Below, piece by piece: positions 1-64,000 of a stretch of 64,000 nt of DNA. Each line of letters begins with the position of its first letter. Positions within the stretch are counted from its first letter, which is position 1. The translations under genes and the position numbers were made by a program. Below the pieces are notes generated by a model. The model saw only the letters and a program-made list of their open reading frames with translations. It was not told where the DNA came from and did not search any database. This stretch comes from Brienomyrus brachyistius (lineage: Eukaryota; Chordata; Actinopteri; Osteoglossiformes; Mormyridae), in NCBI RefSeq assembly GCF_023856365.1, contig NC_064551.1:1320501-1384500 (forward strand). The letters are read 5' to 3'.

Positions 1-3000
1 CAGGGAGTAAAAGAATAGAATCTACTAAAAGAACAACTGAAGTCAAAGTGAAAACGGGTCGCCAGCGAGTGAAATCAAAATCACAAGATGTTATTTCATT
101 GGGAGAATTGGACAGGGAGAGGCAGCCATCTTTGAGCCCAGATATTAAAGCCGATGTAACATCATTAAGTGAAAGAGAGCAATCAGAGATATTCAGCACA
201 GAGTCTGACTTTAAACCTCTTAGTGCCAGTGTCCAATATGAGATTCATAGTACTAAAGTAGAAGTTAAACCTGCCCCTGAAATTATAAGCTTGGAGACAC
301 CTAAGACAGAGACAGAGGTGACAGCTGACAGAGAGTCAATGCCATCTGAGGTATCAACATTAGAGGCAGAACTGACAGCAGATGAAGGCAGACTGCAAGG
401 TGAGATTCCAAAGACTGAGGCAACAGTTGCCTTTGATACAGAGCTAACTGAATCTGTGATAGAAGTTGTAGATGTAGATGCCATGGCAGACAGAGATATG
501 CTCCAAGTAGACCTTCCCAAATCAGATTCTGATGTCACTGAGGGTCAGTCAAGAACGCAGACAGTGATAAAAATCAGTGAAGTTTGTTTTACACCAGAAA
601 GGGACACAAAGCAAGATGAGATTGCAACAGCTGAGGTTACAGTCACATCGGGCAGCGAGGTAGTAGAGCCTGAGATATGCCGTCCCTCAACAGAAAGTGA
701 GAGAGTGGAGTTTGAGATAGCAAAGGCCGAGCCTGAAGTCACGCTTGACATTGTTACACTGAAACCTAGTATTGTAAAGATCGAGCCAGATCTCAGACCA
801 GACACAGACGGACTGCAAACTGAGCAGCTAAAGGTCAAGATTGATCTCTCATCAGATAGTGATAGAGTGACACCTGAAAAATCAGAGACTGACACGGATG
901 TTACACCGGAGAGGGAAACCCTGCTATCAGACATTCCAAGTCCCAAGGCTGATGTGGTGTCAGGGAGTAAAAGAATAGAATCTACTAAAAGAAAAACTGA
1001 AGTCAAAGTGAAAACGGGTCGCCGGCGAGTGAAATCAAAATCACAAGATGTTATTTCATTGGGAGAATTGGACAGGGAGAGGCAGCCATCTTTGAGCCCA
1101 GATATTAAAGCCGATGTAACATCATTCAGTGAAAGAGAGCAATCAGAGATATTCAGCACAGAGTCTGACTTTAAACCTCTTAGTGCCAGTGTCCAATATG
1201 AGATTCATAGTACTAAAGTAGAAGTTAAACCTGCCCCTGAAATTATAAGCTTGGAGACACCTAAGACAGAGACAGAGGTGACAGCTGACAGAGAGTCAAT
1301 GCCATCTGAGGTATCAACATTAGAGGCAGAACTGACAGCAGATGAAGGCAGACTGCAAGCTGAGATTCCAAGGACTGAGGAAACAGTTGCCTTTGATACA
1401 GAGCTAACTGAATCTGTGATAGAAGTTGTAGATGTAGATGCCATGGCAGACAGAGATATGCTCCAAGTAGACCTTCCCAAATCAGATTCTGATGTCACTG
1501 AGGGTCAGTCAAGAACGCAGACAGTGATAAAAATCAGTGAAGTTTGTTTTACACCAGAAAGGGACACAAAGCAAGATGAGATTGCAACAGCTGAGGTTAC
1601 AGTCACATCGGGCAGCGAGGTAGTAGAGCCTGAGATATGCCGTCCCTCAACAGAAAGTGAGAGAGTGGAGTTTGAGATAGCAAAGGCCGAGCCTGAAGTC
1701 ACGCTTGACATTGTTACACTGAAACCTAGTATTGTAAAGATCGAGCCAGATCTCAGACCAGACACAGACGGACTGCAAACTGAGCAGCTAAAGGTCAAGA
1801 TTGATCTCTCATCAGATAGTGATAGAGTGACACCTGAAAAATCAGAGACTGACACGGATGTTACACCGGAGAGGGAAACCCTGCTATCAGACATTCCAAG
1901 TCCCAAGGCTGATGTGGTGTCAGGGAGTAAAAGAATAGAATCTACTAAAAGAACAACTGAAGTCAAAGTGAAAACGGGTCGCCAGCGAGTGAAATCAAAA
2001 TCACAAGATGTTATTTCATTGGGAGAATTGGACAGGGAGAGGCAGCCATCTTTGAGCCCAGATATTAAAGCCGATGTAACATCATTAAGTGAAAGAGAGC
2101 AATCAGAGATATTCAGCACAGAGTCTGACTTTAAACCTCTTAGTGCCAGTGTCCAATATGAGATTCATAGTACTAAAGTAGAAGTTAAACCTGCCCCTGA
2201 AATTATAAGCTTGGAGACACCTAAGACAGAGACAGAGGTGACAGCTGACAGAGAGTCAATGCCATCTGAGGTATCAACATTAGAGGCAGAACTGACAGCA
2301 GATGAAGGCAGACTGCAAGCTGAGATTCCAAGGACTGAGGAAACAGTTGCCTTTGATACAGAGCTAACCGAATCTGTGATAGAAGTTGTAGATGTAGATG
2401 CCATGGCAGACAGAGATATGCTCCAAGTAGACCTTCCCAAATCAGATTTTGATGTCACTGAGGGTCAGTCAAGAACGCAGACAGTGATAAAAATCAGTGA
2501 AGTTTGTTTTACACCAGAAAGGGACACAAAGCAAAATGAGATTGCAACAGCTGAGGTTACAGTCACATCGGGCAGCGAGGTAGTAGAGCCTGAGATATGC
2601 CATCCCTCAACAGAAAGTGAGAGAGTGGAGTTTGAGATAGCAAAGGCCGAGCTTGAAGTCACACTTGACATTGTTACACTGAAACCTAGTATTGCAAAGA
2701 TCGAGCCAGATCTCAGACCAGACACAGACGGACTGCAAACTGAGCAGCTAAAGGTCAAGATTGATCTCTCATCAGATAGTGATAGAGTGACACCTGAAAA
2801 ATCAGAGACTGACACGGATGTTACACCGGAGAGAGAAACCCTGCTATCAGACATTCCAAGTCCCAAGGCTGATGTGGTGTCAGGGAGTAAAAGAATAGTA
2901 TCTACTAAAAGAAAAACTGAAGTCAAAGTGAAAACGGGTCGCCGGCGAGTGAAATCAAAATCACAAGATGTTATTTCATGGGGAGAATTGGACAGGGAGA

Positions 3001-6000
3001 GGCAGCCATCTTTGAGCCCAGATATTAAAGCCGATGTAACATCATTCAGTGAAAGAGAGCAATCAGAGATATTCAGCACAGAGTCTGACTTTAAACCTCT
3101 TAGTGCAAGTGTCCAATATGAGATTCATAGTACTAAAGTAGAAGTTAAACCTGCCCCTGAAATTATAAGCTTGAAGACACCTAAGACAGAGAGAGAGGTG
3201 ACAGCTGACAGAGAGTCAATGCCATCTGAGGTATCAACATTAGAGGCAGAACTGACAGCAGATGAAGGCAGACTGCAAGCTGAGATTCCAAAGACTGAGG
3301 CAACAGTTACCTTCGATACAGAGCTAACTGAATCTGTGATAGAAGTTGTAGATGTAGATGCCATGGCAGACAGAGATATGCTCCAAGTAGACCTTCCTAA
3401 ATCAGATTTTGATGTCACTGAGGGTCAGTCAAGAACGCAGACAGTGATAAAAATCAGTGAAGTTTGTTTTACACCAGAAAGGGACACAAAGCAAAATGAG
3501 ATTGCAACAGCTGAGGTTACAGTCACATCGGGCAGCGAGGTAGTAGAGCCTGAGATATGCCATCCCTCAACAGAAAGTGAGAGAGTGGAGTTTGAGATAG
3601 CAAAGGCTGAGCCTGAAGTCACGCTTGACATTGTTACACTGAAACCTAGTATTGTAAAGATCGAGCCAGATCTCAGACCAGACACAGACAGACTGCAAAC
3701 TGAGCAGCTAAAGGTCAAGATTGATCTCTCATCAGATAGTGATAGAGTGACACCTGAAAAATCAGAGACTGACACGGATGTTACACCGGAGAGAGAAACC
3801 CTGCTATCAGACATTCCAAGTCCCAAGGCTGATGTGGTGTCAGGGAGTAAAAGAATAGAATCTACTAAAAGAACAACTGAAGTCAAAGTGAAAACGGGTC
3901 GCCGGCGAGTGAAATCAAAATCACAAGATGTTATTTCATTGGGAGGATTGGACAGGGAGAGGCAGCCATCTTTGAGCCCAGATATTAAAGCCGATGTAAC
4001 ATCATTCAGTGAAAGAGAGCAATCAGAGATATTCAGCACAGAGTCTGACTTTAAACCTCTTAGTGCCAGTGTCCAATATGAGATTCATAGTACTAAAGTA
4101 GAAGTTAAACCTGCCCCTGAAATTATAAGCTTGGAGACACCTAAGACAGAGACAGAGGTGACAGCTGACAGAGAGTCAATGCCATCTGAGGTATCAACAT
4201 TAGAGGCAGAACTGACAGCAGATGATGGCAGACTGCAAGCTGAGATTCCAAAGACTGAGGCAACAGTTGCCTTCGATACAGAGCTAACTGAATCTGTGAT
4301 AGAAGTTGTAGATGTAGATGCCATGGCAGACAGAGATATGCTCCAAGTAGACCTTCCTAAATCAGACTCTGATGTCACTGAGGGTCAGTCAAGAACGCAG
4401 ACAGTGATAAAAATCAGTGAAGTTTGTTTTACACCGCAAATGGACACAATGCAAGATGAGATTGCAACAGCTGAGGTTACAGTCACATCGGGCAGCGAGG
4501 TAGTAGAGCCTGAGATTTGCCGTCCCTCAACAGAAAGTGAGAGAGTGGAGTTTGAGATAGCAAAGGCCGAGCCTGAAGTCACGCTTGACATTGTTACACT
4601 GAAACCTAGTATTGCAAAGATCGAGCCAGATCTCAGACCAGACACAGACAGACTACAAACTGAGCAGCTAAAGGTCAAGATTGATCTCTCATCAGATAGT
4701 GATAGAGTGACACCTGAAAAATCAGAGACTGACACGGATGTTACACCGGAGAGAGAAACCCTGCTATCAGACATTCCAAGTCCCAAGGCTGATGTGGTGT
4801 CAGGGAGTAAAAGAATAGAATCTACTAAAAGAACAACTGAAGTCAAAGTGAAAACGGGTCGCCGGCGAGTGAAATCAAAATCACAAGATGTTATTTCATT
4901 GGGAGAATTGGACAGGGAGAGGCAGCCATCTTTGAGCCCAGATATTAAAGCCGATGTAACATCATTCAGTGAAAGAGAGCAATCAGAGATATTCAGCACA
5001 GAGTCTGACTTTAAACCTCTTAGTGCCAGTGTCCAATATGAGATTCATAGTACTAAAGTAGAAGTTAAACCTGCCCCTGAAATTATAAGCTTGGAGACAA
5101 CTAAGACAGAGACAGAGGTGACAGCTGACAGAGAGTCAATGCCATCTGAGGTATCAACATTAGAGGCAGAACTGACAGCAGATGATGGCAGACTGCAAGC
5201 TGAGATTCCAAAGACTGAGGCAACAGTTGCCTTCGATACAGAGCTAACTGAATCTGTGATAGAAGTTGTAGATGTAGATGCCATGGCAGACAGAGATATG
5301 CTCCAAGTAGACCTTCCTAAATCAGACTCTGATGTCACTGAGGGTCAGTCAAGAACGCAGACAGTGATAAAAATCAGTGATGTTTGTTTTACACCGCAAA
5401 TGGACACAATGCAAGATGAGATTGCAACAGCTGAGGTTACAGTCACATCGGGCAGCGAGGTAGTAGAGCCTGAGATATGCCGTCCCTCAACAGAAAGTGA
5501 GAGAGTGGAGTTTGAGATAGCAAAGGCCGAGCCTGAAGTCACGCTTGACATTGTTACACTGAAACCTAGTATTGCAAAGATCGAGCCAGATCTCAGACCA
5601 GACACAGACAGACTGCAAACTGAGCAGCTAAAGGTCAAGACTGATCTCTCATCAGATAGTGATAGAGTGACACCTGAAAAATCAGAGACTGACACGGATG
5701 TTACACCGGAGAGAGAAACCCTGCTATCAGACATTCCAAGTCCCAAGGCTGATGTGGTGTCAGGGAGTAAAAGAATAGAATCTACTAAAAGAACAACTGA
5801 AGTCAAAGTGAAAACGGGTCGCCGGCGAGTGAAATCAAAATCACAAGATGTTATTTCATTGGGAGAATGGGACAGGGAGAGGCAGCCATCTTTGAGCCCA
5901 GATATTAAAGCCGATGTAACATCATTCAGTGAAAGAGAGCAATCAGAGATATTCAGCACAGAGTCTGACTTTAAACCTCTTAGTGCCAGTGTCCAATATG

Positions 6001-9000
6001 AGATTCATAGTACTAAAGTAGAAGTTAAACCTGCCCCTGAAATTATAAGCTTGGAGACACCTAAGACAGAGACAGAGGTGACAGCTGACAGAGAGTCAAT
6101 GCCATCTGAGGTATCAACATTAGAGGCAGAACTGACAGCAGATGAAGGCAGACTGCAAGCTGAGATTCCAAAGACTGAGGCAACAGTTGCCTTTGATACA
6201 GAGCTAACTGAATCTGTGATAGAAGTTGTAGATGTAGATGCCATGGCAGACAGAGATATGCTCCAAGTAGACCTTCCTAAATCAGACTCTGATGTCACTG
6301 AGGGTCAGTCAAGAACGCAGACAGTGATAAAAATCAGTGAAGTTTGTTTTACACCGCAAATGGACACAATGCAAGATGAGATTGCAACAGCTGAGGTTAC
6401 AGTCACATCGGGCAGCGAGGTAGTAGAGCCTGAGATATGCCGTCCCTCAACAGAAAGTGAGAGAGTGGAGTTTGAGATAGCAAAGGCTGAGCCTAAAGTC
6501 ACGCTTGACATTGTTACACTGAAACCTAGTATTGTAAAGATCGAGCCAGATCTCAGACCAGACACAGACGGACTGCAAACTGAGCAGCTAAAGGTCAAGA
6601 TTGATCTCTCATCAGATAGTGATAGAGTGACACCTGAAAAATCAGAGACTGACACGGATGTTACACCGGAGAGAGAAACCCTGCTATCAGACATTCCAAG
6701 TCCCAAGGCTGATGTGGTGTCAGGGAGTAAAAGAATAGAATCTACTAAAAGAAAAACTGAAGTCAAAGTGAAAACGGGTCGCCGGCGAGTGAAATCAAAA
6801 TCACAAGATGTTATTTCATTGGGAGGATTGGACAGGGAGAGGCAGCCATCTTTGAGCCCAGATATTAAAGCCGATGTAACATCATTCAGTGAAAGAGAGC
6901 AATCAGAGATATTCAGCACAGAGTCTGACTTTAAACCTCTTAGTGCCAGTGTCCAATATGAGATTCATAGTACTAAAGTAGAAGTTAAACCTGCCCCTGA
7001 AATTATAAGCTTGGAGACACCTAAGACAGAGACAGAGGTGACAGCTGACAGAGAGTCAATGCCATCTGAGGTATCAACATTAGAGGCAGAACTGACAGCA
7101 GATGAAGGCAGACTGCAAGCTGAGATTCCAAAGACTGAGGCAACAGTTGCCTTTGATACAGAGCTAACTGAATCTGTGATAGAAGTTGTAGATGTAGATG
7201 CCATGGCAGACAGAGATATGCTCCAAGTAGACCTTCCTAAATCAGACTCTGATGTCACTGAGGGTCAGTCAAGAACGCAGACAGTGATAAAAATCAGTGA
7301 AGTTTGTTTTACACCGCAAATGGACACAATGCAAGATGAGATTGCAACAGCTGAGGTTACAGTCACATCGGGCAGCGAGGTAGTAGAGCCTGAGATATGC
7401 CGTCCCTCAACAGAAAATGAGAGAGTGGAGTTTGAGATAGCAAAGGCTGAGCCTGAAGTCACGCTTGACATTGTTACACTGAAACCTAGTATTGTAAAGA
7501 TCGAGCCAGATCTCAGACCAGACACAGACGGACTGCAAACTGAGCAGCTAAAGGTCAAGATTGATCTCTCATCAGATAGTGATAGAGTGACACCTGAAAA
7601 ATCAGAGACTGACACGGATGTTACACCGGAGAGAGAAACCCTGCTATCAGACATTCCAAGTCCCAAGGCTGATGTGGTGTCAGGGAGTAAAGGAATAGAA
7701 TCTACTAAAAGAAAAACTGAAGTCAAAGTGAAAACGGGTCGCCGGCGAGTGAAATCAAAATCACAAGATGTTATTTCATTGGGAGGATTGGACAGGGAGA
7801 GGCAGCCATCTTTGAGCCCAGATATTAAAGCCGATGTAACATCATTCAGTGAAAGAGAGCAATCAGAGTTATTCAGCACAGAGTCTGACTTTAAACCTCT
7901 TAGTGCCAGTGTCCAATATGAGATTCATAGTACTAAAGTAGAAGTTAAACCTGCCCCTGAAATTATAAGCTTGGAGACACCTAAGACAGAGACAGAGGTG
8001 ACAGCTGACAGAGAGTCAATGCCATCTGAGGTATCAATATTAGAGGCAGAACTGACAGCAGATGAAGGCAGACTGCAAGCTGAGATTCCAAGGACTGAGG
8101 AAACAGTTGCCTTTGATACAGAGCTAACCGAATCTGTGATAGAAGTTGTAGATGTAGATGCCATGGCAGACAGAGATATGCTCCAAGTAGACCTTCCCAA
8201 ATCAGATTCTGATGTCACTGAGGGTCAGTCAAGAACGCAGACAGTGATAAAAATCAGTGAAGTTTGTTTTACACCGCAAATGGACACAATGCAAGATGAG
8301 ATTGCAACAGCTGAGGTTACAGTCACATCGGGCAGCGAGGTAGTAGAGCCTGAGATATGCCGTCCCTCAACAGAAAGTGAGAGAGTGGAGTTTGAGATAG
8401 CAAAGGCTGAGCCTGAAGTCACGCTTGACATTGTTACACTGAAACCTAGTATTGTAAAGATCGAGCCAGATCTCAGACCAGACACAGACGGACTGCAAAC
8501 TGAGCAGCTAAAGGTCAAGATTGATCTCTCATCAGATAGTGATAGAGTGACACCTGAAAAATCAGAGACTGACACGGATGTTACACCGGAGAGAGAAACC
8601 CTGCTATCAGACATTCCAAGTCCCAAGGCTGGTGTGGTGTCAGGGAGTAAAAGAATACAATCTACTAAAAGAAAAACTGAAGTCAAAGTGAAAACGGGTC
8701 GCCGGCGAGTGAAATCAAAATCACAAGATGTTATTTCATTGGGAGGATTGGACAGGGAGAGGCAGCCATCTTTGAGCCCAGATATTAAAGCCGATGTAAC
8801 ATCATTCAGTGAAAGAGAGCAATCAGAGTTATTCAGCACAGAGTCTGACTTTAAACCTCTTAGTGCCAGTGTCCAATATGAGATTCATAGTACTAAAGTA
8901 GAAGTTAAACCTGCCCCTGAAATTATAAGCTTGGAGACACCTAAGACAGAGACAGAGGTGACAGCTGACAGAGAGTCAATGCCATCTGAGGTATCAACAT

Positions 9001-12000
9001 TAGAGGCAGAACTGACAGCAGATGAAGGCAGACTGCAAGCTGAGATTCCAAAGACTGAGGCAACAGTTGCCTTTGATACAGAGCTAACTGAATCTGTGAT
9101 AGAAGTTGTAGATGTAGATGCCATGGCAGACAGAGATATGCTCCAAGTAGACCTTCCTAAATCAGACTCTGATGTCACTGAGGGTCAGTCAAGAACGCAG
9201 ACAGTGATAAAAATCAGTGAAGTTTGTTTTACACCGCAAATGGACACAATGCAAGATGAGATTGCAACAGCTGAGGTTACAGTCACATCGGGCAGCGAGG
9301 TAGTAGAGCCTGAGATATGCCGTCCCTCAACAGAAAGTGAGAGAGTGGAGTTTGAGATAGCAAAGGCTGAGCCTGAAGTCACGCTTGACATTGTTACACT
9401 GAAACCTAGTATTGTAAAGATCGAGCCAGATCTCAGACCAGACACAGACGGACTGCAAACTGAGCAGCTAAAGGTCAAGATTGATCTCTCATCAGATAGT
9501 GATAGAGTGACACCTGAAAAATCAGAGACTGACACGGATGTTACACCGGAGAGAGAAACCCTGCTATCAGACATTCCAAGTCCCAAGGCTGATGTGGTGT
9601 CAGGGAGTAAAAGAATAGAATCTACTAAAAGAAAAACTGAAGTCAAAGTGAAAACGGGTCGCCGGCGAGTGAAATCAAAATCACAAGATGTTATTTCATT
9701 GGGAGAATTGGACAGGGAGAGGCAGCCATCTTTGAGCCCAGATATTAAAGCCGATGTAACATCATTCAGTGAAAGAGAGCAATCAGAGTTATTCAGCACA
9801 GAGTCTGACTTTAAACCTCTTAGTGCCAGTGTCCAATATGAGATTCATAGTACTAAAGTAGAAGTTAAACCTGCCCCTGAAATTATAAGCTTGGAGACAC
9901 CTAAGACAGAGACAGAGGTGACAGCTGACAGAGAGTCAATGCCATCTGAGGTATCAACATTAGAGGCAGAACTGACAGCAGATGAAGGCAGACTGCAAGC
10001 TGAGATTCCAAAGACTGAGGCAACAGTTGCCTTTGATACAGAGCTAACTGAATCTGTGATAGAAGTTGTAGATATAGATGCCATGGCAGACAGAGATATG
10101 CTCCAAGTAGACCTTCCTAAATCAGACTCTGATGTCACTGAGGGTCAGTCAAGAACGCAGACAGTGATAAAAATCAGTGAAGTTTGTTTTACACCGCAAA
10201 TGGACACAATGCAAGATGAGATTGCAACAGCTGAGGTTACAGTCACATCGGGCAGCGAGGTAGTAGAGCCTGAGATATGCCGTCCCTCAACAGAAAGTGA
10301 GAGAGTGGAGTTTGAGATAGCAAAGGCTGAGCCTGAAGTCACGCTTGACATTGTTACACTGAAACCTAGTATTGTAAAGATCGAGCCAGATCTCAGACCA
10401 GACACAGACGGACTGCAAACTGAGCAGCTAAAGGTCAAGATTGATCTCTCATCAGATAGTGATAGAGTGACACCTGAAAAATCAGAGACTGACACGGATG
10501 TTACACCGGAGAGAGAAACCCTGCTATCAGACATTCCAAGTCCCAAGGCTGATGTGGTGTCAGGGAGTAAAAGAATAGAATCTACTAAAAGAAAAACTGA
10601 AGTCAAAGTGAAAACGGGTCGCCGGCGAGTGAAATCAAAATCACAAGATGTTATTTCATTGGGAGGATTGGACAGGGAGAGGCAGCCATCTTTGAGCCCA
10701 GATATTAAAGCCGATGTAACATCATTCAGTGAAAGAGAGCAATCAGAGTTATTCAGCACAGAGTCTGACTTTAAACCTCTTAGTGCCAGTGTCCAATATG
10801 AGATTCATAGTACTAAAGTAGAAGTTAAACCTGCCCCTGAAATTATAAGCTTGGAGACACCTAAGACAGAGACAGAGGTGACAGCTGACAGAGAGTCAAT
10901 GCCATCTGAGGTATCAACATTAGAGGCAGAACTGACAGCAGATGAAGGCAGACTGCAAGCTGAGATTCCAAAGACTGAGGCAACAGTTGCCTTTGATACA
11001 GAGCTAACTGAATCTGTGATAGAAGTTGTAGATGTAGATGCCATGGCAGACAGAGATATGCTCCAAGTAGACCTTCCTAAATCAGACTCTGATGTCACTG
11101 AGGGTCAGTCAAGAACGCAGACAGTGATAAAAATCAGTGAAGTTTGTTTTACACCGCAAATGGACACAATGCAAGATGAGATTGCAACAGCTGAGGTTAC
11201 AGTCACATCGGGCAGCGAGGTAGTAGAGCCTGAGATATGCCGTCCCTCAACAGAAAGTGAGAGAGTGGAGTTTGAGATAGCAAAGGCTGAGCCTGAAGTC
11301 ACGCTTGACATTGTTACACTGAAACCTAGTATTGTAAAGATCGAGCCAGATCTCAGACCAGACACAGACGGACTGCAAACTGAGCAGCTAAAGGTCAAGA
11401 TTGATCTCTCATCAGATAGTGATAGAGTGACACCTGAAAAATCAGAGACTGACACGGATGTTACACCGGAGAGAGAAACCCTGCTATCAGACATTCCAAG
11501 TCCCAAGGCTGATGTGGTGTCAGGGAGTAAAAGAATAGAATCTACTAAAAGAAAAACTGAAGTCAAAGTGAAAACGGGTCGCCGGCGAGTGAAATCAAAA
11601 TCACAAGATGTTATTTCATTGGGAGGATTGGACAGGGAGAGGCAGCCATCTTTGAGCCCAGATATTAAAGCCGATGTAACATCATTCAGTAAAAGAGAGC
11701 AATCAGAGTTATTCAGCACAGAGTCTGACTTTAAACCTCTTAGTGCCAGTGTCCAATATGAGATTCATAGTACTAAAGTAGAAGTTAAACCTGCCCCTGA
11801 AATTATAAGCTTGGAGACACCTAAGACAGAGACAGAGGTGACAGCTGACAGAGAGTCAATGCCATCTGAGGTATCAACATTAGAGGCAGAACTGACAGCA
11901 GATGAAGGCAGACTGCAAGCTGAGATTCCAAAGACTGAGGCAACAGTTGCCTTTGATACAGAGCTAACTGAATCTGTGATAGAAGTTGTAGATGTAGATG

Positions 12001-18000: not shown

Positions 18001-21000
18001 CAAAGGCTGAGCCTAAAGTCACGCTTGACATTGTTACACTGAAACCTAATATTGTAAAGATCGAGCCAGATCTCAGACCAGACACAGACGGACTGCAAAC
18101 TGAGCAGCTAAAGGTCAAGATTGATCTCTCATCAGATAGTGATAGAGTGACACCTGAAAAATCAGAGACTGACACGGATGTTACACCGGAGAGAGAAACC
18201 CTGCTATCAGACATTCCAAGTCCCAAGGCTGATGTGGTGTCAGGGAGTAAAAGAATAGAATCTACTAAAAGAAAAACTGAAGTCAAAGTGAAAACGGGTC
18301 GCCGGCGAGTGAAATCAAAATCACAAGATGTTATTTCATTGGGAGGATTGGACAGGGAGAGGCAGCCATCTTTGAGCCCAGATATTAAAGCCGATGTAAC
18401 ATCATTCAGTGAAAGAGAGCAATCAGAGTTATTCAGCACAGAGTCTGACTTTAAACCTCTTAGTGCCAGTGTCCAATATGAGATTCATAGTACTAAAGTA
18501 GAAGTTAAACCTGCCCCTGAAATTATAAGCTTGGAGACACCTAAGACAGAGACAGAGGTGACAGCTGACAGAGAGTCAATGCCATCTGAGGTATCAACAT
18601 TAGAGGCAGAACTGACAGCAGATGAAGGCAGACTGCAAGCTGAGATTCCAAGGACTGAGGAAACAGTTGCCTTTGATACAGAGCTAACCGAATCTGTGAT
18701 AGAAGTTGTAGATGTAGATGCCATGGCAGACAGAGATATGCTCCAAGTAGACCTTCCCAAATCAGATTCTGATGTCACTGAGGGTCAGTCAAGAACGCAG
18801 ACAGTGATAAAAATCAGTGAAGTTTGTTTTACACCGCAAATGGACACAATGCAAGATGAGATTGCAACAGCTGAGGTTACAGTCACATCGGGCAGCGAGG
18901 TAGTAGAGCCTGAGATATGCCGTCCCTCAACAGAAAGTGAGAGAGTGGAGTTTGAGATAGCAAAGGCTGAGCCTGAAGTCATGCTTGACATTTTTACACT
19001 GAAACCTAGTATTGTAAAGATCGAGCCAGATCTCAGACCAGACACAGACGGACTGCAAACTGAGCAGCTAAAGGTCAAGATTGATCTCTCATCAGATAGT
19101 GATAGAGTGACACCTGAAAAATCAGAGACTGACACGGATGTTACACCGGAGAGAGAAACCCTGCTATCAGACATTCCAAGTCCCAAGGCTGATGTGGTGT
19201 CAGGGAGTAAAAGAATAGAATCTACTAAAAGAAAAACTGAAGTCAAAGTGAAAACGGGTCGCCGGCGAGTGAAATCAAAATCACAAGATGTTATTTCATT
19301 GGGAGGATTGGACAGGGAGAGGCAGCCATCTTTGAGCCCAGATATTAAAGCCGATGTAACATCATTCAGTGAAAGAGAGCAATCAGAGTTATTCAGCACA
19401 GAGTCTGACTTTAAACCTCTTAGTGCCAGTGTCCAATATGAGATTCATAGTACTAAAGTAGAAGTTAAACCTGCCCCTGAAATTATAAGCTTGGAGACAC
19501 CTAAGACAGAGACAGAGGTGACAGCTGACAGAGAGTCAATGCCATCTGAGGTATCAACATTAGAGGCAGAACTGACAGCAGATGAAGGCAGACTGCAAGC
19601 TGAGATTCCAAGGACTGAGGAAACAGTTGCCTTTGATACAGAGCTAACCGAATCTGTGATAGAAGTTGTAGATGTAGATGCCATGGCAGACAGAGATATG
19701 CTCCAAGTAGACCTTCCCAAATCAGATTCTGATGTCACTGAGGGTCAGTCAAGAACGCAGACAGTGATAAAAATCAGTGAAGTTTGTTTTACACCGCAAA
19801 TGGACACAATGCAAGATGAGATTGCAACAGCTGAGGTTACAGTCACATCGGGCAGCGAGGTAGTAGAGCCTGAGATATGCCGTCCCTCAACAGAAAGTGA
19901 GAGAGTGGAGTTTGAGATAGCAAAGGCTGAGCCTGAAGTCATGCTTGACATTTTTACACTGAAACCTAGTATTGTAAAGATCGAGCCAGATCTCAGACCA
20001 GACACAGACGGACTGCAAACTGAGCAGCTAAAGGTCAAGATTGATCTCTCATCAGATAGTGATAGAGTGACACCTGAAAAATCAGAGACTGACACGGATG
20101 TTACACCGGAGAGAGAAACCCTGCTATCAGACATTCCAAGTCCCAAGGCTGATGTGGTGTCAGGGAGTAAAAGAATACAATCTACTAAAAGAAAAACTGA
20201 AGTCAAAGTGAAAACGGGTCGCCGGCGAGTGAAATTAAAATCACAAGATGTTATTTCATTGGGAGGATTGGACAGGGAGAGGCAGCCATCTTTGAGCCCA
20301 GATATTAAAGCCGATGTAACATCATTCAGTGAAAGAGAGCAATCAGAGTTATTCAGCACAGAGTCTGACTTTAAACCTCTTAGTGCCAGTGTCCAATATG
20401 AGATTCATAGTACTAAAGTAGAAGTTAAACCTGCCCCTGAAATTATAAGCTTGGAGACACCTAAGACAGAGACAGAGGTGACAGCTGACAGAGAGTCAAT
20501 GCCATCTGAGGTATCAACATTAGAGGCAGAACTGACAGCAGATGAAGGCAGACTGCAAGCTGAGATTCCAAGGACTGAGGAAACAGTTGCCTTTGATACA
20601 GAGCTAACCGAATCTGTGATAGAATTTGTAGATGTAGATGCCATGGCAGACAGAGATATGCTCCAAGTAGACCTTCCCAAATCAGATTCTGATGTCACTG
20701 AGGGTCAGTCAAGAACGCAGACAGTGATAAAAATCAGTGAAGTTTGTTTTACACCGCAAATGGACACAATGCAAGATGAGATTGCAACAGCTGAGGTTAC
20801 AGTCACATCGGGCAGCGAGGTAGTAGAGCCTGAGATATGCCGTCCCTCAACAGAAAGTGAGAGAGTGGAGTTTGAGATAGCAAAGGCCGAGCCTGAAGTC
20901 ACGCTTGACATTGTTACACTGAAACCTAGTATTGCAAAGATCGAGCCAGATCTCAGACCAGACACAGACAGACTGCAAACTGAGCAGCTAAAGGTCAAGA

Positions 21001-24000
21001 TTGATCTCTCATCAGATAGTGATAGAGTGACACCTGAAAAATCAGAGACTGACACGGATGTTACACCGGAGAGAGAAACCCTGCTATCAGACATTCCAAG
21101 TCCCAAGGCTGATGTGGTGTCAGGGAGTAAAAGAATAGAATCTACTAAAAGAACAACTGAAGTCAAAGTGAAAACGGGTCGCCGGCGAGTGAAATCAAAA
21201 TCACAAGATGTTATTTCATTGGGAGAATTGGACAGGGAGAGGCAGCCATCTTTGTGCCCAGATATTAAAGCCGATGTAACATCATTCAGTGAAAGAGAGC
21301 AATCAGAGATATTCAGCACAGAGTCTGACTTTAAACCTCTTAGTGCCAGTGTCCAATATGAGATTCATAGTACTAAAGTAGAAGTTAAACCTGCCCCTGA
21401 AATTATAAGCTTGGAGACACCTAAGACAGAGACAGAGGTGACAGCTGACAGAGAGTCAATGCCATCTGAGGTATCAACATTAGAGGCAGAACTGACAGCA
21501 GATGAAGGCAGACTGCAAGCTGAGATTCCAAAGACTGAGGCAACAGTTGCCTTTGATACAGAGCTAACTGAATCTGTGATAGAAGTTGTAGATGTAGATG
21601 CCATGGCAGACAGAGATATGCTCCAAGTAGACCTTCCCAAATCAGATTTTGATGTCACTGAGGGTCAGTCAAGAACGCAGACAGTGATAAAAATCAGTGA
21701 AGTTTGTTTTACACCAGAAAGGGACACAAAGCAAAATGAGATTGCAACAGCTGAGGTTACAGTCACATCGGGCAGCGAGGTAGTAGAGCCTGAGATATGC
21801 CATCCCTCAACAGAAAGTGAGAGAGTGGAGTTTGAGATAGCAAAGGCCGAGCCTGAAGTCACACTTGACATTGTTACACTGAAACCTAGTATTGTAAAGA
21901 TCGAGCCAGATCTCAGACCAGACACAGACGGACTGCAAACTGAGCAGCTAAAGGTCAAGATTGATCTCTCATCAGATAGTGATAGAGTGACACCTGAAAA
22001 ATCAGAGACTGACACGGATGTTACACCGGAGAGAGAAACCCTGCTATCAGACATTCCAAGTCCCAAGGCTGATGTGGTGTCAGGGAGTAAAAGAATAGAA
22101 TCTACTAAAATAAAAACTGAAGTCAAAGTGAAAACGGGTCGCCGGCGAGTGAAATCAAAATCACAAGATGTTATTTCATTGGGAGGATTGGACAGGGAGA
22201 GGCAGCCATCTTTGAGCCCAGATATTAAAGCCGATGTAACATCATTCAGTGAAAGAGAGATATCAGAGTTATTCAGCACAGAGTCTGACTTTAAACCTCT
22301 TAGTGCCAGTGTCCAATATGAGATTCATAGTACTAAAGTAGAAGTTAAACCTGCCCCTGAAATTATAAGCTTGGAGACACCTAAGACAGAGACAGAGGTG
22401 ACAGCTGACAGAGAGTCAATGCCATCTGAGGTATCAACATTAGAGGCAGAACTGACAGCAGATGAAGGCAGACTGCAAGCTGAGATTCCAAGGACTGAGG
22501 AAACAGTTGCCTTTGATACAGAGCTAACCGAATCTGTGATAGAAGTTGTAGATGTAGATGCCATGGCAGACAGAGATATGCTCCAAGTAGACCTTCCCAA
22601 ATCAGATTCTGATGTCACTGAGGGTCAGTCAAGAACGCAGACAGTGATAAACATCAGTGAAGTTTGTTTTACACCGCAAATGGACACAATGCAAGATGAG
22701 ATTGCAACAGCTGAGGTTACAGTCACATCGGGCAGCGAGGTAGTAGAGCCTGAGATATGCCGTCCCTCAACAGAAAGTGAGAGAGTGGAGTTTGAGATAG
22801 CAAAGGCCGAGCCTGAAGTCACGCTTGACATTTTTACACTGAAACCTAGTATTGTAAAGATCGAGCCAGATCTCAGACCAGACACAGACGGACTGCAAAC
22901 TGAGCAGCTAAAGGTCAAGATTGATCTCTCATCAGATAGTGATAGAGTGACACCTGAAAAATCAGAGACTGACACGGATGTTACACCGGAGAGAGAAACC
23001 CTGCTATCAGACATTCCAAGTCCCAAGGCTGATGTGGTGTCAGGGAGTAAAAGAATAGAATCTACTAAAATAAAAACTGAAGTCAAAGTGAAAACGGGTC
23101 GCCGGCGAGTGAAATCAAAATCACAAGATGTTATTTCATTGGGAGGATTGGACAGGGAGAGGCAGCCATCTTTGAGCCCAGATATTAAAGCCGATGTAAC
23201 ATCATTCAGTGAAAGAGAGCAATCAGAGTTATTCAGCACAGAGTCTGACTTTAAACCTCTTAGTGCCAGTGTCCAATATGAGATTCATAGTACTAAAGTA
23301 GAAGTTAAACCTGCCCCTGAAATTATAAGCTTGGAGACACCTAAGACAGAGACAGAGGTGACAGCTGACAGAGAGTCAATGCCATCTGAGGTATCAACAT
23401 TAGAGGCAGAACTGACAGCAGATGAAGGCAGACTGCAAGCTGAGATTCCAAAGACTGAGGCAACAGTTGCCTTCGATACAGAGCTAACTGAATCTGTGAT
23501 AGAAGTTGCAGATGTAGATGCCATGGCAGACAGAGATATGCTCCAAGTAGACCTTCCTAAATCAGACTCTGATGTCACTGAGGGTCAGTCAAGAACGCAG
23601 ACAGTGATAAAAATCAGTGAAGTTTGTTTTACACCGCAAATGGACACAATGCAAGATGAGATTGCAACAGCTGAGGTTACAGTCACATCGGGCAGCGAGG
23701 TAGTAGAGCCTGAGATATGCCGTCCCTCAACAGAAAGTGAGAGAGTGGAGTTTGAGATAGCAAAGGCTGAGCCTGAAGTCACGCTTGACATTGTTACACT
23801 GAAACCTAGTATTGTAAAGATCGAGCCAGATCTCAGACCAGACACAGACGGACTGCAAACTGAGCAGCTAAAGGTCAAGATTGATCTCTCATCAGATAGT
23901 AATAGAGTGACACCTGAAAATTCAGAGACTGACACGGATGTTACACCGGAGAGAGAAACCCTGCTATCAGACATTCCAAGTCCCAAGGCTGATGTGGTGT

Positions 24001-27000
24001 CAGGGAGTAAAAGAATAGAATCTACTAAAAGAAAAACTGAAGTCAAAGTGAAAACGGGTCGCCGGCGACTGAAATCAAAATCACAAGATGTTATTTCATT
24101 GGGAGAATTGGACAGGGAGAGGCAGCCACCTTTGAGCCCAGATATTAAAGCCGATGTAACATCATTCAGTGAAAGAGAGCAATCAGAGTTATTCAGCACA
24201 GAGTCTGACTTTAAACCTCTTAGTGCCAGTGTCCAATATGAGATTCATAGTACTAAAGTAGAAGTTAAACCTGCCCCTGAAATTATAAGCTTGGAGACAC
24301 CTAAGACAGAGACAGAGGTGACAGCTGACAGAGAGTCAATGCCATCTGAGGTATCAACATTAGAGGCAGAACTGACAGCAGATGAAGGCAGACTGCAAGC
24401 TGAGATTCCAAGGACTGAGGAAACAGTTGCCTTTGATACAGAGCTAACCGAATCTGTGATAGAAGTTGTAGATGTAGATGCCATGGCAGACAGAGATATG
24501 CTCCAAGTAGACCTTCCCAAATCAGATTCTGATGTCACTGAGGGTCAGTCAAGAACGCAGACAGTGATAAAAATCAGTGAAGTTTGTTTTACACCGCAAA
24601 TGGACACAATGCAAGATGAGATTGCAACAGCTGAGGTTACAGTCACATCGGGCAGCGAGGTAGTAGAGCCTGAGATATGCCGTCCCTCAACAGAAAGTGA
24701 GAGAGTGGAGTTTGAGATAGCAAAGGCTGAGCCTGAAGTCATGCTTGACATTTTTACACTGAAACCTAGTATTGTAAAGATCGAGCCAGATCTCAGACCA
24801 GACACAGACGGACTGCAAACTGAGCAGCTAAAGGTCAAGATTGATCTCTCATCAGATAGTGATAGAGTGACACCTGAAAAATCAGAGACTGACACGGATG
24901 TTACACCGGAGAGAGAAACCCTGCTATCAGACATTCCAAGTCCCAAGGCTGATGTGGTGTCAGGGAGTAAAAGAATACAATCTACTAAAAGAAAAACTGA
25001 AGTCAAAGTGAAAACGGGTCGCCGGCGAGTGAAATCAAAATCACAAGATGTTATTTTATTGGGAGGATTGGACAGGGAGAGGCAGCCATCTTTGAGCCCA
25101 GATATTAAAGCCGATGTAACATCATTCAGTGAAAGAGAGCAATCAGAGTTATTCAGCACAGAGTCTGACTTTAAACCTCTTAGTGCCAGTGTCCAATATG
25201 AGATTCATAGTACTAAAGTAGAAGTTAAACCTGCCCCTGAAATTATAAGCTTGGAGACACCTAAGACAGAGACAGAGGTGACAGCTGACAGAGAGTCAAT
25301 GCCATCTGAGGTATCAACATTAGAGGCAGAACTGACAGCAGATGAAGGCAGACTGCAAGCTGAGATTCCAAGGACTGAGGAAACAGTTGCCTTTGATACA
25401 GAGCTAACCGAATCTGTGATAGAATTTGTAGATGTAGATGCCATGGCAGACAGAGATATGCTCCAAGTAGACCTTCCCAAATCAGATTCTGATGTCACTG
25501 AGGGTCAGTCAAGAACGCAGACAGTGATAAAAATCAGTGAAGTTTATTTTACACCGCAAATGGACACAATGCAAGATGAGATTGCAACAGCTGAGGTTAC
25601 AGTCACATCGGGCAGCGAGGTAGTAGAGCCTGAGATATGCCGTCCCTCAACAGAAAGTGAGAGAGTGGAGTTTGAGATAGCAAAGGCCGAGCCTGAAGTC
25701 ACGCTTGACATTGTTACACTGAAACCTAGTATTGCAAAGATCGAGCCAGATCTCAGACCAGACACAGACAGACTGCAAACTGAGCAGCTAAAGGTCAAGA
25801 TTGATCTCTCATCAGATAGTGATAGAGTGACACCTGAAAAATCAGAGACTGACACGGATGTTACACCGGAGAGAGAAACCCTGCTATCAGACATTCCAAG
25901 TCCCAAGGCTGATGTGGTGTCAGGGAGTAAAAGAATAGAATCTACTAAAAGAACAACTGAAGTCAAAGTGAAAACGGGTCGCCGGCGAGTGAAATCAAAA
26001 TCACAAGATGTTATTTCATTGGGAGAATTGGACAGGGAGAGGCAGCCATCTTTGAGCCCAGATATTAAAGCCGATGTAACATCATTCAGTGAAAGAGAGC
26101 AATCAGAGATATTCAGCACAGAGTCTGACTTTAAACCTCTTAGTGCCAGTGTCCAATATGAGATTCATAGTACTAAAGTAGAAGTTAAACCTGCCCCTGA
26201 AATTATAAGCTTGGAGACACCTAAGACAGAGACAGAGGTGACAGCTGACAGAGAGTCAATGCCATCTGAGGTATCAACATTAGAGGCAGAACTGACAGCA
26301 GATGAAGGCAGACTGCAAGCTGAGATTCCAAAGACTGAGGCAACAGTTGCCTTTGATACAGAGCTAACTGAATCTGTGATAGAAGTTGTAGATGTAGATG
26401 CCATGGCAGACAGAGATATGCTCCAAGTAGACCTTCCTAAATCAGACTCTGATGTCACTGAGGGTCAGTCAAGAACGCAGACAGTGATAAAAATCAGTGA
26501 AGTTTGTTTTACACCGCAAATGGACACAATGCAAGATGAGATTGCAACAGCTGAGGTTACAGTCACATCGGGCAGCGAGGTAGTAGAGCCTGAGATATGC
26601 CGTCCCTCAACAGAAAGTGAGAGAGTGGAGTTTGAGATAGCAAAGGCTGAGCCTAAAGTCACGCTTGACATTGTTACACTGAAACCTAGTATTGTAAAGA
26701 TCGAGCCAGATCTCAGACCAGACACAGACGGACTGCAAACTGAGCAGCTAAAGGTCAAGATTGATCTCTCATCAGATAGTGATAGAGTGACACCTGAAAA
26801 ATCTGAGACTGACACGGATGTTACACCGGAGAGAGAAACCCTGCTATCAGACATTCCAAGTCCCAAGGCTGATGTGGTGTCAGGGAGTAAAAGAATAGAA
26901 TCTACTAAAAGAAAAACTGAAGTCAAAGTGAAAACGGGTCGCCGGCGAGTGAAATCAAAATCACAAGATGTTATTTCATTGGGAGGATTGGACAGGGAGA

Positions 27001-30000
27001 GGCAGCCATCTTTGAGCCCAGATATTAAAGCCGATGTAACATCATTCAGTGAAAGAGAGCAATCAGAGTTATTCAGCACAGAGTCTGACTTTAAACCTCT
27101 TAGTGCCAGTGTCCAATATGAGATTCATAGTACTAAAGTAGAAGTTAAACCTGCCCCTGAAATTATAAGCTTGGAGACACCTAAGACAGAGACACAGGTG
27201 AAAGCTGACAGAGAGTCAATGCCATCTGAGGTATCAACATTAGAGGCAGAACTGACAGCAGATGAATGCAGACTGCAAGCTGAGATTCCAAAGACTGAGG
27301 CAACAGTTGCCTTCGATACAGAGCTAACTGAATCTGTGATAGAAATTGTAGATATAGATGCCATGGCAGACAGAGATATGCTCCAAGTAGACCTTCCCAA
27401 ATCAGATTCTGATGTCACTGAGGGTCAGTCAAGAACGCAGACAGTGATAAAAATCAGTGAAGTTTGTTTTACACCAGAAAGGGACACAAAGCAAGATGAG
27501 ATTGCAACAGCTGAGGTTACAGTCACATCGGGCAGCGAGGTAGTAGAGCCTGAGATATGCCATCACTCAACAGAAAGTGAGAGAGTGGAGTTTGAGATAG
27601 CAAAGGCCGAGCCTGAAGTCACACTTGACATTGTTACACTGAAACCTAGTATTGTAAAGATCGAGCCAGATCTCAGACCAGACACAGACGGACTGCAAAC
27701 TGAGCAGCTAAAGGTCAAGATTGATCTCTCATCAGATAGTGATAGAGTGACACCTGAAAAATCAGAGACTGACACGGATGTTACACCGGAGAGAGAAACC
27801 CTGCTATCAGACATTCCAAGTCCCAAGGCTGATGTGGTGTCAGGGAGTAAAAGAATAGAATCTACTAAAATAAAAACTGAAGTCAAAGTGAAAACGGGTC
27901 GCCGGCGAGTGAAATCAAAATCACAAGATGTTATTTCATTGGGAGGATTGGACAGGGAGAGGCAGCCATCTTTGATCCCAGATATTAAAGCCGATGTAAC
28001 ATCATTCAGTGAAAGAGAGATATCAGAGTTATTCAGCACAGAGTCTGACTTTAAACCTCTTAGTGCCAGTGTCCAATATGAGATTCATAGTACTAAAGTA
28101 GAAGTTAAACCTGCCCCTGAAATTATAAGCTTGGAGACACCTAAGACAGAGACAGAGGTGACAGCTGACAGAGAGTCAATGCCATCTGAGGTATCAACAT
28201 TAGAGGCAGAACTGACAGCAGATGAAGGCAGACTGCAAGCTGAGATTCCAAGGACTGAGGAAACAGTTGCCTTTGATACAGAGCTAACCGAATCTGTGAT
28301 AGAAGTTGTAGATGTAGATGCCATGGCAGACAGAGATATGCTCCAAGTAGACCTTCCCAAATCAGATTCTGATGTCACTGAGGGTCAGTCAAGAACGCAG
28401 ACAGTGATAAAAATCAGTGAAGTTTGTTTTACACCGCAAATGGACACAATGCAAGATGAGATTGCAACAGCTGAGGTTACAGTCACATCGGGCAGCGAGG
28501 TAGTAGAGCCTGAGATATGCCGTCCCTCAACAGAAAGTGAGAGAGTGGAGTTTGAGATAGCAAAGGCCGAGCCTGAAGTCACACTTGACATTGTTACACT
28601 GAAACCTAGTATTGTAAAGATCGAGCCAGATCTCAGACCAGACACAGACGGACTGCAAACTGAGCAGCTAAAGGTCAAGATTGATCTCTCATCAGATAGT
28701 GATAGAGTGACACCTGAAAAATCAGAGACTGACACGGATGTTACACCGGAGAGAGAAACCCTGCTATCAGACATTCCAAGTCCCAAGGCTGATGTGGTGT
28801 CAGGGAGTAAAAGAATAGAATCTACTAAAAGAAAAACTGAAGTCAAAGTGAAAACGGGTCGCCGGCGAGTGAAATCAAAATCACAAGATGTTATTTCATT
28901 GGGAGGATTGGACAGGGAGAGGCAGCCATCTTTGAGCCCAGATATTAAAGCCGATGTAACATCATTCAGTGAAAGAGAGCAATCAGAGATATTCAGCACA
29001 GAGTCTGACTTTAAACCTCTTAGTGCCAGTGTCCAATATGAGATTCATAGTACTAAAGTAGAAGTTAAACCTGCCCCTGAAATTATAAGCTTGGAGACAC
29101 CTAAGACAGAGACAGAGGTGACAGCTGACAGAGAGTCAATGCCATCTGAGGTATCAACATTAGAGGCAGAACTGACAGCAGATGAAGGCAGACTGCAAGC
29201 TGAGATTCCAAAGACTGAGGCAACAGTTGCCTTCGATACAGAGCTAACTGAATCTGTGATAGAAGTTGCAGATGTAGATGCCATGGCAGACAGAGATATG
29301 CTCCAAGTAGACCTTCCTAAATCAGACTCTGATGTCACTGAGGGTCAGTCAAGAACGCAGACAGTGATAAAAATCAGTGAAGTTTGTTTTATACCGCAAA
29401 TGGACACAATGCAAGATGAGATTGCAACAGCTGAGGTTACAGTCACATCGGGCAGCGAGGTAGTAGAGCCTGAGATATGCCCTCCCTCAACAGAAAGTGA
29501 GAGAGTGGAGTTTGAGATAGCAAAGGCTGAGCCTGAAGTCACGCTTGACATTGTTACACTGAAACCTAGTATTGCAAAGATCGAGCCAGATCTCAGACCA
29601 GACACAGACAGACTGCAAACTGAGCAGCTAAAGGTCAAGATTGATCTCTCATCAGATAGTGATAGAGTGACACCTGAAAAATCAGAGACTGACACGGATG
29701 TTACACCGGAGAGAGAAACCCTGCTATCAGACATTCCAAGTCCCAAGGCTGATGTGGTGTCAGGGAGTAAAAGAATAGAATCTACTAAAAGAAAAACTGA
29801 AGTCAAAGTGAAAACGGGTCGCCGGCGAGTGAAATCAAAATCACAAGATGTTATTTCATTGGGAGGATTGGACAGGGAGAGGCAGCCATCTTTGAGCCCA
29901 GATATTAAAGCCGATGTAACATCATTCAGTAAAAGAGAGCAATTAGAGATATTCAGCACAGAGTCTGACTTTAAACCTCTTAGTGCCAGTGTCCAATATG

Positions 30001-30734
30001 AGATTCATAGTACTAAAGTAGAAGTTAAACCTGCCCCTGAAATTATAAGCTTGGAGACACCTAAGACAGAGACAGAGGTGACAGCTGACAGAGAGTCAAT
30101 GCCATCTGAGGTATCAACATTAGAGGCAGAACTGACAGCAGATGAAGGCAGACTGCAAGCTGAGATTCCAAAGACTGAGGCAACAGTTGCGTTCGATACA
30201 GAGCTAACTGAATCTGTGATAGAAGTTGCAGATGTAGATGCCATGGCAGACAGAGATATGCTCCAAGTAGACCTTCCTAAATCAGACTCTGATGTCACTG
30301 AGGGTCAGTCAAGAACGCAGACAGTGATAAAAATCAGTGAAGTTTGTTTTACACTGCAAATGGACACAATGCAAGATGAGATTGCAACAGCTGAGGTTAC
30401 AGTCACATCGGGCAGCGAGGTAGTAGAGCCTGAGATATGCCGTCCCTCAACAGAAAGTGAGAGAGTGGAGTTTGAGATAGCAAAGGCCGAGCCTGAAGTC
30501 ACACTTGACATTGTTACACTGAAACCTAGTATAGCTAAGATCGAACCAGATCTCAGACCAGACACAGACGGACTGCAAACTGAGCAGCTAAAGGTCAAGA
30601 TTGATCTCTCATCAGATATTGATAGAGTGACACCTGAAAAATCAGAGACTGACACGGATGTTACACCGGAGAGAGAAACCCTGCTATCAGACATTCCAAG
30701 TCCCAAGGCTGATGTGGTGTCAGGGAGTAAAAGG
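1..30734 (+). repeat. 960-bp coding tandem array, 32 copies plus a 14-bp stub, continuing off the left edge
   Basis: The unit length is exactly 960 bp, so positions 1, 961, 1921 and so on to 29761 are equivalent. Copies differ by scattered substitutions only; I see no indel in any copy. The array stops 14 bases into a 33rd copy, at 30734. Each 320-residue unit resolves into 18 sub-repeats, seventeen of 18 residues and one of 14, with the loose pattern xxVTxDxxxLxxEIxKxE; the short one is TESERVEFEIAKAE. Recurrent variants are GELDR/GGLDR, SEIFSTE/SELFSTE, TPERDTKQ/TPQMDTMQ, IPKTEAT/IPRTEET, IVKIE/IAKIE and DTDGLQ/DTDRLQ. Confidence 0.97.
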
Positions 30735-31952
30735 AAACTATCTATCACCGGAATACAATGCTTTACAATAGAGGACACAGACACTGCAGTCACCGGAATA
30801 CAACGCTTAAAGACAGAGGACACATACACCGTGCTCACTGGAATACAAAGCGTAAAGATAGAGGAGACAGACACTGCGGTCACTGGAATAGCACATTTAA
30901 TTATAGAGGACTCAGAAACCGTCATCACAGGAATACAAAGTTTAAAATCAGAGGACACACACATTGCGGTCACTGGAATACACAGCCTAAAAATAGAGGA
31001 CACAGACACTGCGGACACCGGAGTACGAATCTTACAGATAGAGGACACAGACACTGCGGACACCGGAGTTCGAATCTTACAGACAGAGGACACAAACACT
31101 GCGGTCACTGGAATACACAGCCTAAAAATAGAGGACACAGACACTGCGGTCACCGGAGTACGAATCTTACAGATAGAGGACACAGACGCTGCGGTCACCG
31201 GAGTACGAATCTTACAGATAGAGGACACAGACACTGCGGTCACTGGAGTACGAAGCTTGAAGACAGTGGACACAGACACTGTAGCCACAGGAATACAAAG
31301 CTTGAAGACAGAGGACACAGACACTGCAGTCACAGGAACAATAAGCTCAGAAAAACTTGACAATGAGATTGCCGTTAAAGAAAAATATTTATCATACCAA
31401 CAGGATTCTGAGATGCCAAAGCCTGATTTCACAACTTATGTGGAAGAGGTTGCCAGAGAGCCCAGAGTAGAAGTGCATGGGGAGAGCACTGAGACACTTC
31501 AAGAGGTGCTTTTAGTCAGTCGTAACGTTCACTGGCCTACCACAGTCCAAAGTGTTGAACATGTGGAAAGCCTCAGTACGGCTACTTTACTCACAGATGA
31601 TCCAAGTGTTAGCATAAGTTCCCAGCCAAGGAAAACCCACGCAGAGCAAATGGACTCTGATATCTTGCCAACACAACCCCTTGGAACATGGACTTCCATT
31701 CACAGCATGACACAGCACATCATATCTGAGTCAGCTGACTCGGACTCCTCCAGTCTTGGGCCTGGGTTACCCCAGAGCAGGCCGTGGGACCTACGGCATA
31801 GAGTTGCCCATTTGAGCAGCCTGCAGCCACCTGATCCTGATGCTCAGGAGGATACAGGAAGTGGCAGTTCCAGTCTTCCCACTGCCACTTTGAAAACGGG
31901 ACACACAAAGAGCCAAAAGGGTGTTAACCAAGGCAGCAGCTGTGTGCCGCAG
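1..31952 (+). CDS. syne2: syne2 exon 1 of window: giant repeat exon, 5' end outside window
   Basis: The frame is open from base 3 to a TAA at 31986-31988, with no stop in 10,650 codons. Content is 32 copies of a 320-residue unit rich in Glu, Asp, Lys, Ser and Thr, then 13 copies of a 15-residue unit, then about 200 residues of Ser/Thr/Pro-rich, apparently disordered sequence. No domain, membrane segment or catalytic motif is visible. The first base is already inside a repeat copy, so the true exon start is upstream; a GTG at 48 is not a credible start. I end the exon at 31952, where CAG|GTAACC forms a good donor exactly at a codon boundary and matches the phase of the next exon. The alternative is a separate gene ending at the TAA 36 bases later; an AATAAA occurs near 32423. 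Function is unknown; a flexible or filamentous spacer is an inference. Confidence 0.75.
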
Positions 31953-46194: not shown

Positions 46195-46246
<52 letters not shown>

Positions 46247-63823: not shown

Positions 63824-64000
63824 GTATGTCTGCAAAGAACAGGAAATGCACTGGCATGGCTGAGGAACAGAACAGCGATACTTCATTCATCCCCGAGGGA
63901 TGTTGTTATGGAGCCCATCCTACTCGCCATGACACACATGCTGATACGGTCCCCCTCTGTGCCCAAGGCCGCTGGTGCCCTGAGCAGGATATGTGGTGGA
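63824..64000 (+). other. Start of next intron
   Basis: It holds a short retroposon-tail-like string, acttcattcatccccgaggg, near 63,875. No exon is visible before the window ends. Confidence 0.5.

Follow-up and report, generated by a model that had tools for sequence, protein, structure and literature searches.

The family to which nesprin-2 belongs is already known, as are giant exons built of repeats. The vertebrate protein (SYNE2) carries calponin-homology (CH) domains, a rod of spectrin repeats and a KASH domain. Among the longest human coding exons known are those of titin (~17 kb) and MUC16 (~22 kb); MUC16 and AHNAK/AHNAK2 possess giant single exons composed of in-frame tandem units (about 22 and 17–18 kb, respectively), and the PEVK segment of titin is an unfolded spring. 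The largest exon of titin, exon 326, is made of Ig and FnIII motifs (PMC4492817). Zebrafish Syne2b, a paralogue, is predicted to comprise 9,853 residues encoded by 131 exons (PMC8248263). Spectrin repeats of nesprins have also been modelled in a paper whose main text contains none of the words fish, zebrafish or exon (PMC3646009). The titles and abstracts of the open-licence literature yielded nothing on point for record-length exons or a repeat-expanded teleost syne2.

Here we analyse a window of 64,000 bp from the mormyrid Brienomyrus brachyistius, in which all of the coding segments, repeat units and splice signals located below lie on the forward (+) strand. We propose, with a probability of roughly 0.7, that its first half represents the 3′ end of a single giant exon in a teleost nesprin-2 (syne2a-type) gene, coding for an expanded, unfolded and acidic spacer. 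As in SYNE2, the CH domains, spectrin-repeat rod and KASH domain are present on two Brienomyrus gene models that hold the two halves in the same order; what differs is the spacer, whose single open frame covers 10,650 residues or more, bringing the total to at least 20,367 residues if the halves are joined. The locus resembles MUC16 and AHNAK/AHNAK2 in having a very long in-frame tandem exon, although the genes and the units are different ones and the exon lengths given for them above are shorter. Titin likewise has a giant coding exon and may offer a working analogy for an acidic unfolded spring; 36% of the residues encoded by the Brienomyrus exon within the window are P, E, V or K (pI 4.4). 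By contrast, the largest titin exon encodes folded domains.

An earlier, sequence-only reading of the window had reported a frame of 10,650 stop-free codons running from the left edge to a consensus donor on a codon boundary, and both features were recovered. Bases 3–31952 comprise 10,650 codons and are followed immediately by the donor CAG/GTAACC (31953–31958), which scores 8.4 compared with a median of ~7.7 for 28 other donors of the gene. Only if this donor is not used does the frame reach the in-frame TAA at 31986–31988, giving 10,661 open codons (3–31985). The same reading had called this a single coding exon of at least 31.95 kb; the open frame stands, and because the 5′ end of the exon lies outside the window, its being a single exon is deduced from the unbroken frame.

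Within the window, the frame first runs through a tandem array of 32 head-to-tail units of 960 bp (320 codons each) at 3–30722, with TEVTADRESMPSEV forming part of the unit peptide sequence. A truncated 33rd unit start (GGGAGTAAAAGG...; 30723–30744), which agrees with the beginning of the unit at 11 of its first 12 bases before the match decays, links the array to 13.2 copies of a 45-bp (15-residue) repeat that keep the array's frame (30745–31338), after which follows the non-repetitive 3′ part of the exon (31339–31952). The 960-bp unit is itself built from degenerate subrepeats with an 18-residue periodicity, and when these are compared with one another, similarity is lowest at third codon positions for five of five distinct lags (0.44/0.47/0.38 for the three positions at lag 54).

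The open frame across the array exceeds chance expectation. When the consensus unit was shuffled 20,000 times with its dinucleotides preserved, no shuffle was open (mean 20.4 stops), and the two remaining forward frames contain 25 and 41 stops per unit. The reverse frames contain 20, 2 and 24, so that one antisense frame is also fairly open, which counts against the coding argument. Moreover, since the units are ~98% alike, the open frame over the array does not amount to 32 independent trials. Independent evidence for coding is found in the absence of stops among the unit variants together with the constant unit length: all units are exactly 960 bp with no indels, and the 85 distinct variants relative to the consensus unit comprise 68 non-synonymous changes, 17 synonymous changes and no stops, where random placement of the same base changes predicts 60.2, 20.4 and 4.4, respectively. 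Zero stops occurred in 0.92% of 5,000 random draws (P = 0.009), while 17 or more synonymous variants occurred in 86% of them. Purifying selection on residues was not seen among the copies, whose replacement changes look neutral. A noncoding satellite, which would be free of frame constraint, is rejected as the main reading on account of the zero stops and zero indels, even though the variants otherwise fit neutrality.

A protein search with the end of the exon returned seven matches among 2,621 candidates, all of them nesprin-2 isoforms of B. brachyistius that align to 77% of the query region at 100% identity. The assignment of the window to this species rests on that match. The longest listed isoform, P0009 (nesprin-2 X2, 7,147 residues), maps in order on 30 segments of the window. 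Its first segment (30099–31952) begins with a Met inside the final array unit and is joined in the model to the next nesprin-2 coding exon at 35378–35536, whose acceptor TTTTCTGGGCAG/C scores 15.8. The suggested join of the array exon to syne2 through 31952 and 35378 thus exists as an exact junction in a predicted NCBI nesprin-2 model. Seventeen further coding segments for the nesprin-2 rod follow (35941–49555; the largest at 37697–39751), then a segment at 50281–50466, a second long repeat exon of 2,450 codons with degenerate 21-residue repeats (50809–58158) and nine more segments (58269–63824), from which the protein goes on beyond the window to its KASH domain. P0009 lists the spectrin-repeat domains PF00435, PF25034 and PF25035 as well as KASH (PF10541), and ends in YTNGPPPT, the KASH tail lying outside the window. 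Pfam and PDB scans of the window ORF 37532–39820 gave no match. Searches for RNA families at the gathering level and for tRNAs found none.

On the other side of the array, a two-unit query from the left edge (7,987 scored candidates) found, among the matches listed, only P0049, a B. brachyistius model named nesprin-2a of 3,192 residues, located beyond the window and with a 95% match to the unit. P0049 contains two calponin-homology stretches (PF00307, E = 4.9e-36), also matches the nesprin spectrin-repeat domain PF25034, and, coming from the side of the CH domains, enters the array in the array's own protein frame. Residues 2744–2880 form a diverged leader related to the unit, and residues 2881–3188 (308 residues, parts of two successive units) match their best in-window copy at 97.7%, which assigns them to copies beyond the window. 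The listings of P0009 and P0049 both give a contig of 21,748,681 bases, and the link of P0049 to the window rests on this shared figure together with the array sequence. Both models break inside the array, P0049 stopping there and P0009 starting there, and we infer that public annotation seems to have split one nesprin-2 gene in two at this point. If the array were read through, the joined pieces (3,188 + 10,650 + 6,529) would give a nesprin-2 of 20,367 residues, or ~2.25 MDa, a figure to be read as a minimum, since further copies may be present upstream of those counted.

The end of P0049 bears directly on the possibility that the array, although located within the gene, is mostly absent from the mRNA, with an unannotated splice yielding a nesprin-2 of ordinary size, several thousand residues long, with one or two units. 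In support of it, P0049 includes portions of roughly two units before a splice within the array, and the replacement changes look neutral. In addition, the highest-scoring donor-like (6.2) and acceptor-like (7.2) sequences in the unit fall within the range of the gene's real sites. The P0049 splice itself is doubtful: the last residues of the model, IVIE followed by a stop, are what a junction from GAG/GTGACA to TCATCAG/ATAGTGATAGAGTGA inside the array would produce, and this donor scores 6.1 and this acceptor 1.0, the latter below all 26 scored acceptors of the gene (3.0–15.9). Furthermore, DNA that is spliced out would not be expected to keep 85 variants clear of stops (P 0.009) and 32 units clear of indels. 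In favour of the giant exon, no donor-like site in the consensus unit scores higher than the lower quartile of the gene's 28 scored donors, compared with a mean of 3.0 such sites in synonymous-codon shuffles (none in 2.2% of 500). Being one test on one unit, this donor depletion is modest evidence, and the unit shows no shortage of acceptor-like sites (1 compared with a shuffle mean of 0.26). For these scores, the matrices were built on 28 donors from 29 segment ends and 26 acceptors from 28 starts, with the further start at 37697 omitted and one of the 28 donors (score −2.3) probably misplaced. Taken together, we regard skipping of the array as unlikely.

We consider it less likely still that the copy number is an assembly artefact in which copies were inflated or haplotypes were joined. 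The copy number does rest on one assembly, an error is suspected among the kcna7a genes of the B. brachyistius assembly (PMC12188244), and one neighbouring pair of units, the 20th and 21st, is identical. Against this, 31 of the 32 units are distinct, with 85 variants among them, and when offsets of 1 to 31 units were examined none stood out as a block that recurs. Over the first 31,000 bases, lags from 960 to 5,760 (multiples of 960) give 98% identity, and the units differ on average at 13.5 positions per pair. These differences climb from a mean of 11.2 between neighbours to 20–24 at offsets of 28–31 units, and the unit at the right edge is among the most divergent copies; divergence that rises with distance in this way fits local exchange. 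Some miscounted units would in any case still leave a very long exon. The array is thus most likely an in-frame coding minisatellite that has grown by local unequal exchange.

The last 101 residues of the giant exon are 89% identical to a model from a second mormyrid, Paramormyrops kingsleyae P0010, which begins MDSDFLPTQPLG and continues SSCVPQ/QWERR across the same join of tail to rod as in P0009. This model starts at an internal Met within the tail of the giant exon's counterpart, which hints at the same annotation problem. That the array instead ends a separate upstream gene at the TAA at 31986 is rejected as very improbable, for although the frame does continue 11 codons beyond the donor to that stop and NCBI has two separately named models at the locus, the tail is connected to the rod in models from both mormyrid species, in P0009 through a good donor and acceptor, and P0049 bears CH domains on the array's other side.

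Within the length limits used and among the matches listed, protein searches with the array end and with the unit reached no conserved relative of the unit, which counts against the proposal. When the rod segment that follows the array served as query, 46 proteins were returned, all from fishes and many named nesprin-2 or nesprin-2a, including P. kingsleyae (89%), eels and many other teleosts. We compared the spacers of 31 of these, dropping seven Brienomyrus isoforms, P0010, P0018 (a further salmonid), P0047 (a second Labeo model), P0013 (which has only 353 residues ahead of its rod match) and another four Hippoglossus isoforms, the isoform models among the latter having clearer periods (0.20–0.23; 169 residues and others) than the P0031 that was kept (0.11). 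Both halves were matched in order in 27 of the 31, with poorly conserved sequence of variable length between them; nesprin-2a of Salmo salar (7,790 residues), for example, is a single protein that aligns to both halves in order around a spacer. By a crude composition rule, the S/T/P-rich spacer measures 90–3,390 residues in the 31 proteins. As judged from these protein sequences, an S/T/P-rich spacer at the position of the array is widespread among teleost nesprin-2.

Seven of the 31 proteins have a clear internal period (identity ≥0.15) and the remaining 24 show none at that level; for proteins lacking a CH-side match, the period was measured over at most 3,000 residues before the rod match. 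The periods, in residues, are 115 in Conger, 54 in both Monopterus and Anarrhichthys, 370 and 133 in Oreochromis, 333 and 165–168 in Colossoma, 92 in Epinephelus lanceolatus and 142 in Labeo. The Conger repeats look like helical rod rather than spacer, suggesting that the repeats compared are not all of one kind. Pairwise identities of ~18–23% between the unit and other fish spacers, obtained with composition correction off, were not counted as homology; position and composition were used instead. A motif picked after inspecting the sequences, [KR][KR].?KSK, is present in 7 of the 31 spacers and none of the 31 remainders, and occurs 29 times in the 32 units of the giant exon. Compared at the protein level only, the other teleost spacers thus resemble that of Brienomyrus in their position before the rod segment, in being S/T/P-rich and, in some species, in being repetitive, and differ in being shorter and in having unlike unit sequences. 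The Oreochromis protein is named "titin-like" and the Hippoglossus isoforms "titin homolog".

The best reading of the array is a lineage-specific expansion of this unfolded spacer. When a single unit was run alone in AlphaFold2, the model had a pLDDT of 37.9 with no helix and some short low-confidence strands, in contrast to the long helices (pLDDT 66.6) predicted for 320 rod residues from the largest segment (37697–39751). Such single-sequence runs are weak, and the contrast they give fits an unfolded linker within a helical rod. A Pfam HEAT model that matched the units under the cut-off was taken as compositional.

We propose that the spacer sits between an actin-binding half of the rod and a half ending in the KASH membrane anchor, and that a 320-residue unit would have been multiplied there to at least 32 copies by local unequal exchange and then homogenised. 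By analogy with titin PEVK, the product might act as a long entropic spring or slack line from the cytoskeleton to the nucleus; at an assumed 0.36 nm per residue, the 10,240 residues of the array would have a contour of 3.7 μm. We infer that the exon continues as one upstream of the window and that all copies are transcribed and translated. The fullest form of this proposal is tentative, and we would put it at somewhat below even odds: a single vertebrate exon with no less than 32.8 kb of coding sequence (the 31,950 bases within the window and 924 array bases read by P0049), transcribed and translated in full, would yield a nesprin-2 of more than 20,000 residues with an unfolded spring that varies with copy number between individuals, the slack of the tether being set by a coding minisatellite.

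If transcribed as read, the exon would surpass in length the giant human exons named above, and the protein would be about twice the size in print for zebrafish Syne2b (PMC8248263). A LINC-complex protein would then have gained micrometres of unfolded contour through growth of a coding minisatellite, and the limits of internal exon length would be put to the test. The locus also exposes a type of gene that automated annotation seems to cut in two. More speculatively, such a spacer could bear on nuclear positioning in the very large cells of mormyrids, such as electrocytes.

The nesprin-2 locus as a whole is rich in minisatellites and repeat growth. A 35-bp minisatellite of ~17 copies occupies 36486–37075, and most of its copies carry the 3′ splice site (TGTGTTGCAG/GCCTGTCAGCAG) of the exon that P0009 begins at 37056, so that it is possibly a run of tandem acceptors. 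Near-perfect minisatellites are also found between coding segments at 33127–33286 (33 bp), 44059–45242 (50 bp), 60134–60417 (32 bp) and 62746–63451 (38 bp). The second repeat exon (50809–58158) encodes 2,450 residues compared with 749 between the same anchors in P. kingsleyae, and its antisense strand is open over 964 codons. NCBI isoforms X10–X14 and X16 first part from X2 inside this exon, after P0009 residues 2970–3297. Pfam matches of its 21-residue repeats to a grass antifreeze beta-roll (above cut-off) and to a testis-expressed repeat (under cut-off) were taken as compositional. On the CH side, outside the window, P0049 contains 11 copies of SPESLGA at residues 171–271, just before the CH stretch at 299–404, and further coding repeats of Q[AT]PAQ (13 copies), TKQEVGLQP (7 copies) and EDALESKST (5 copies).
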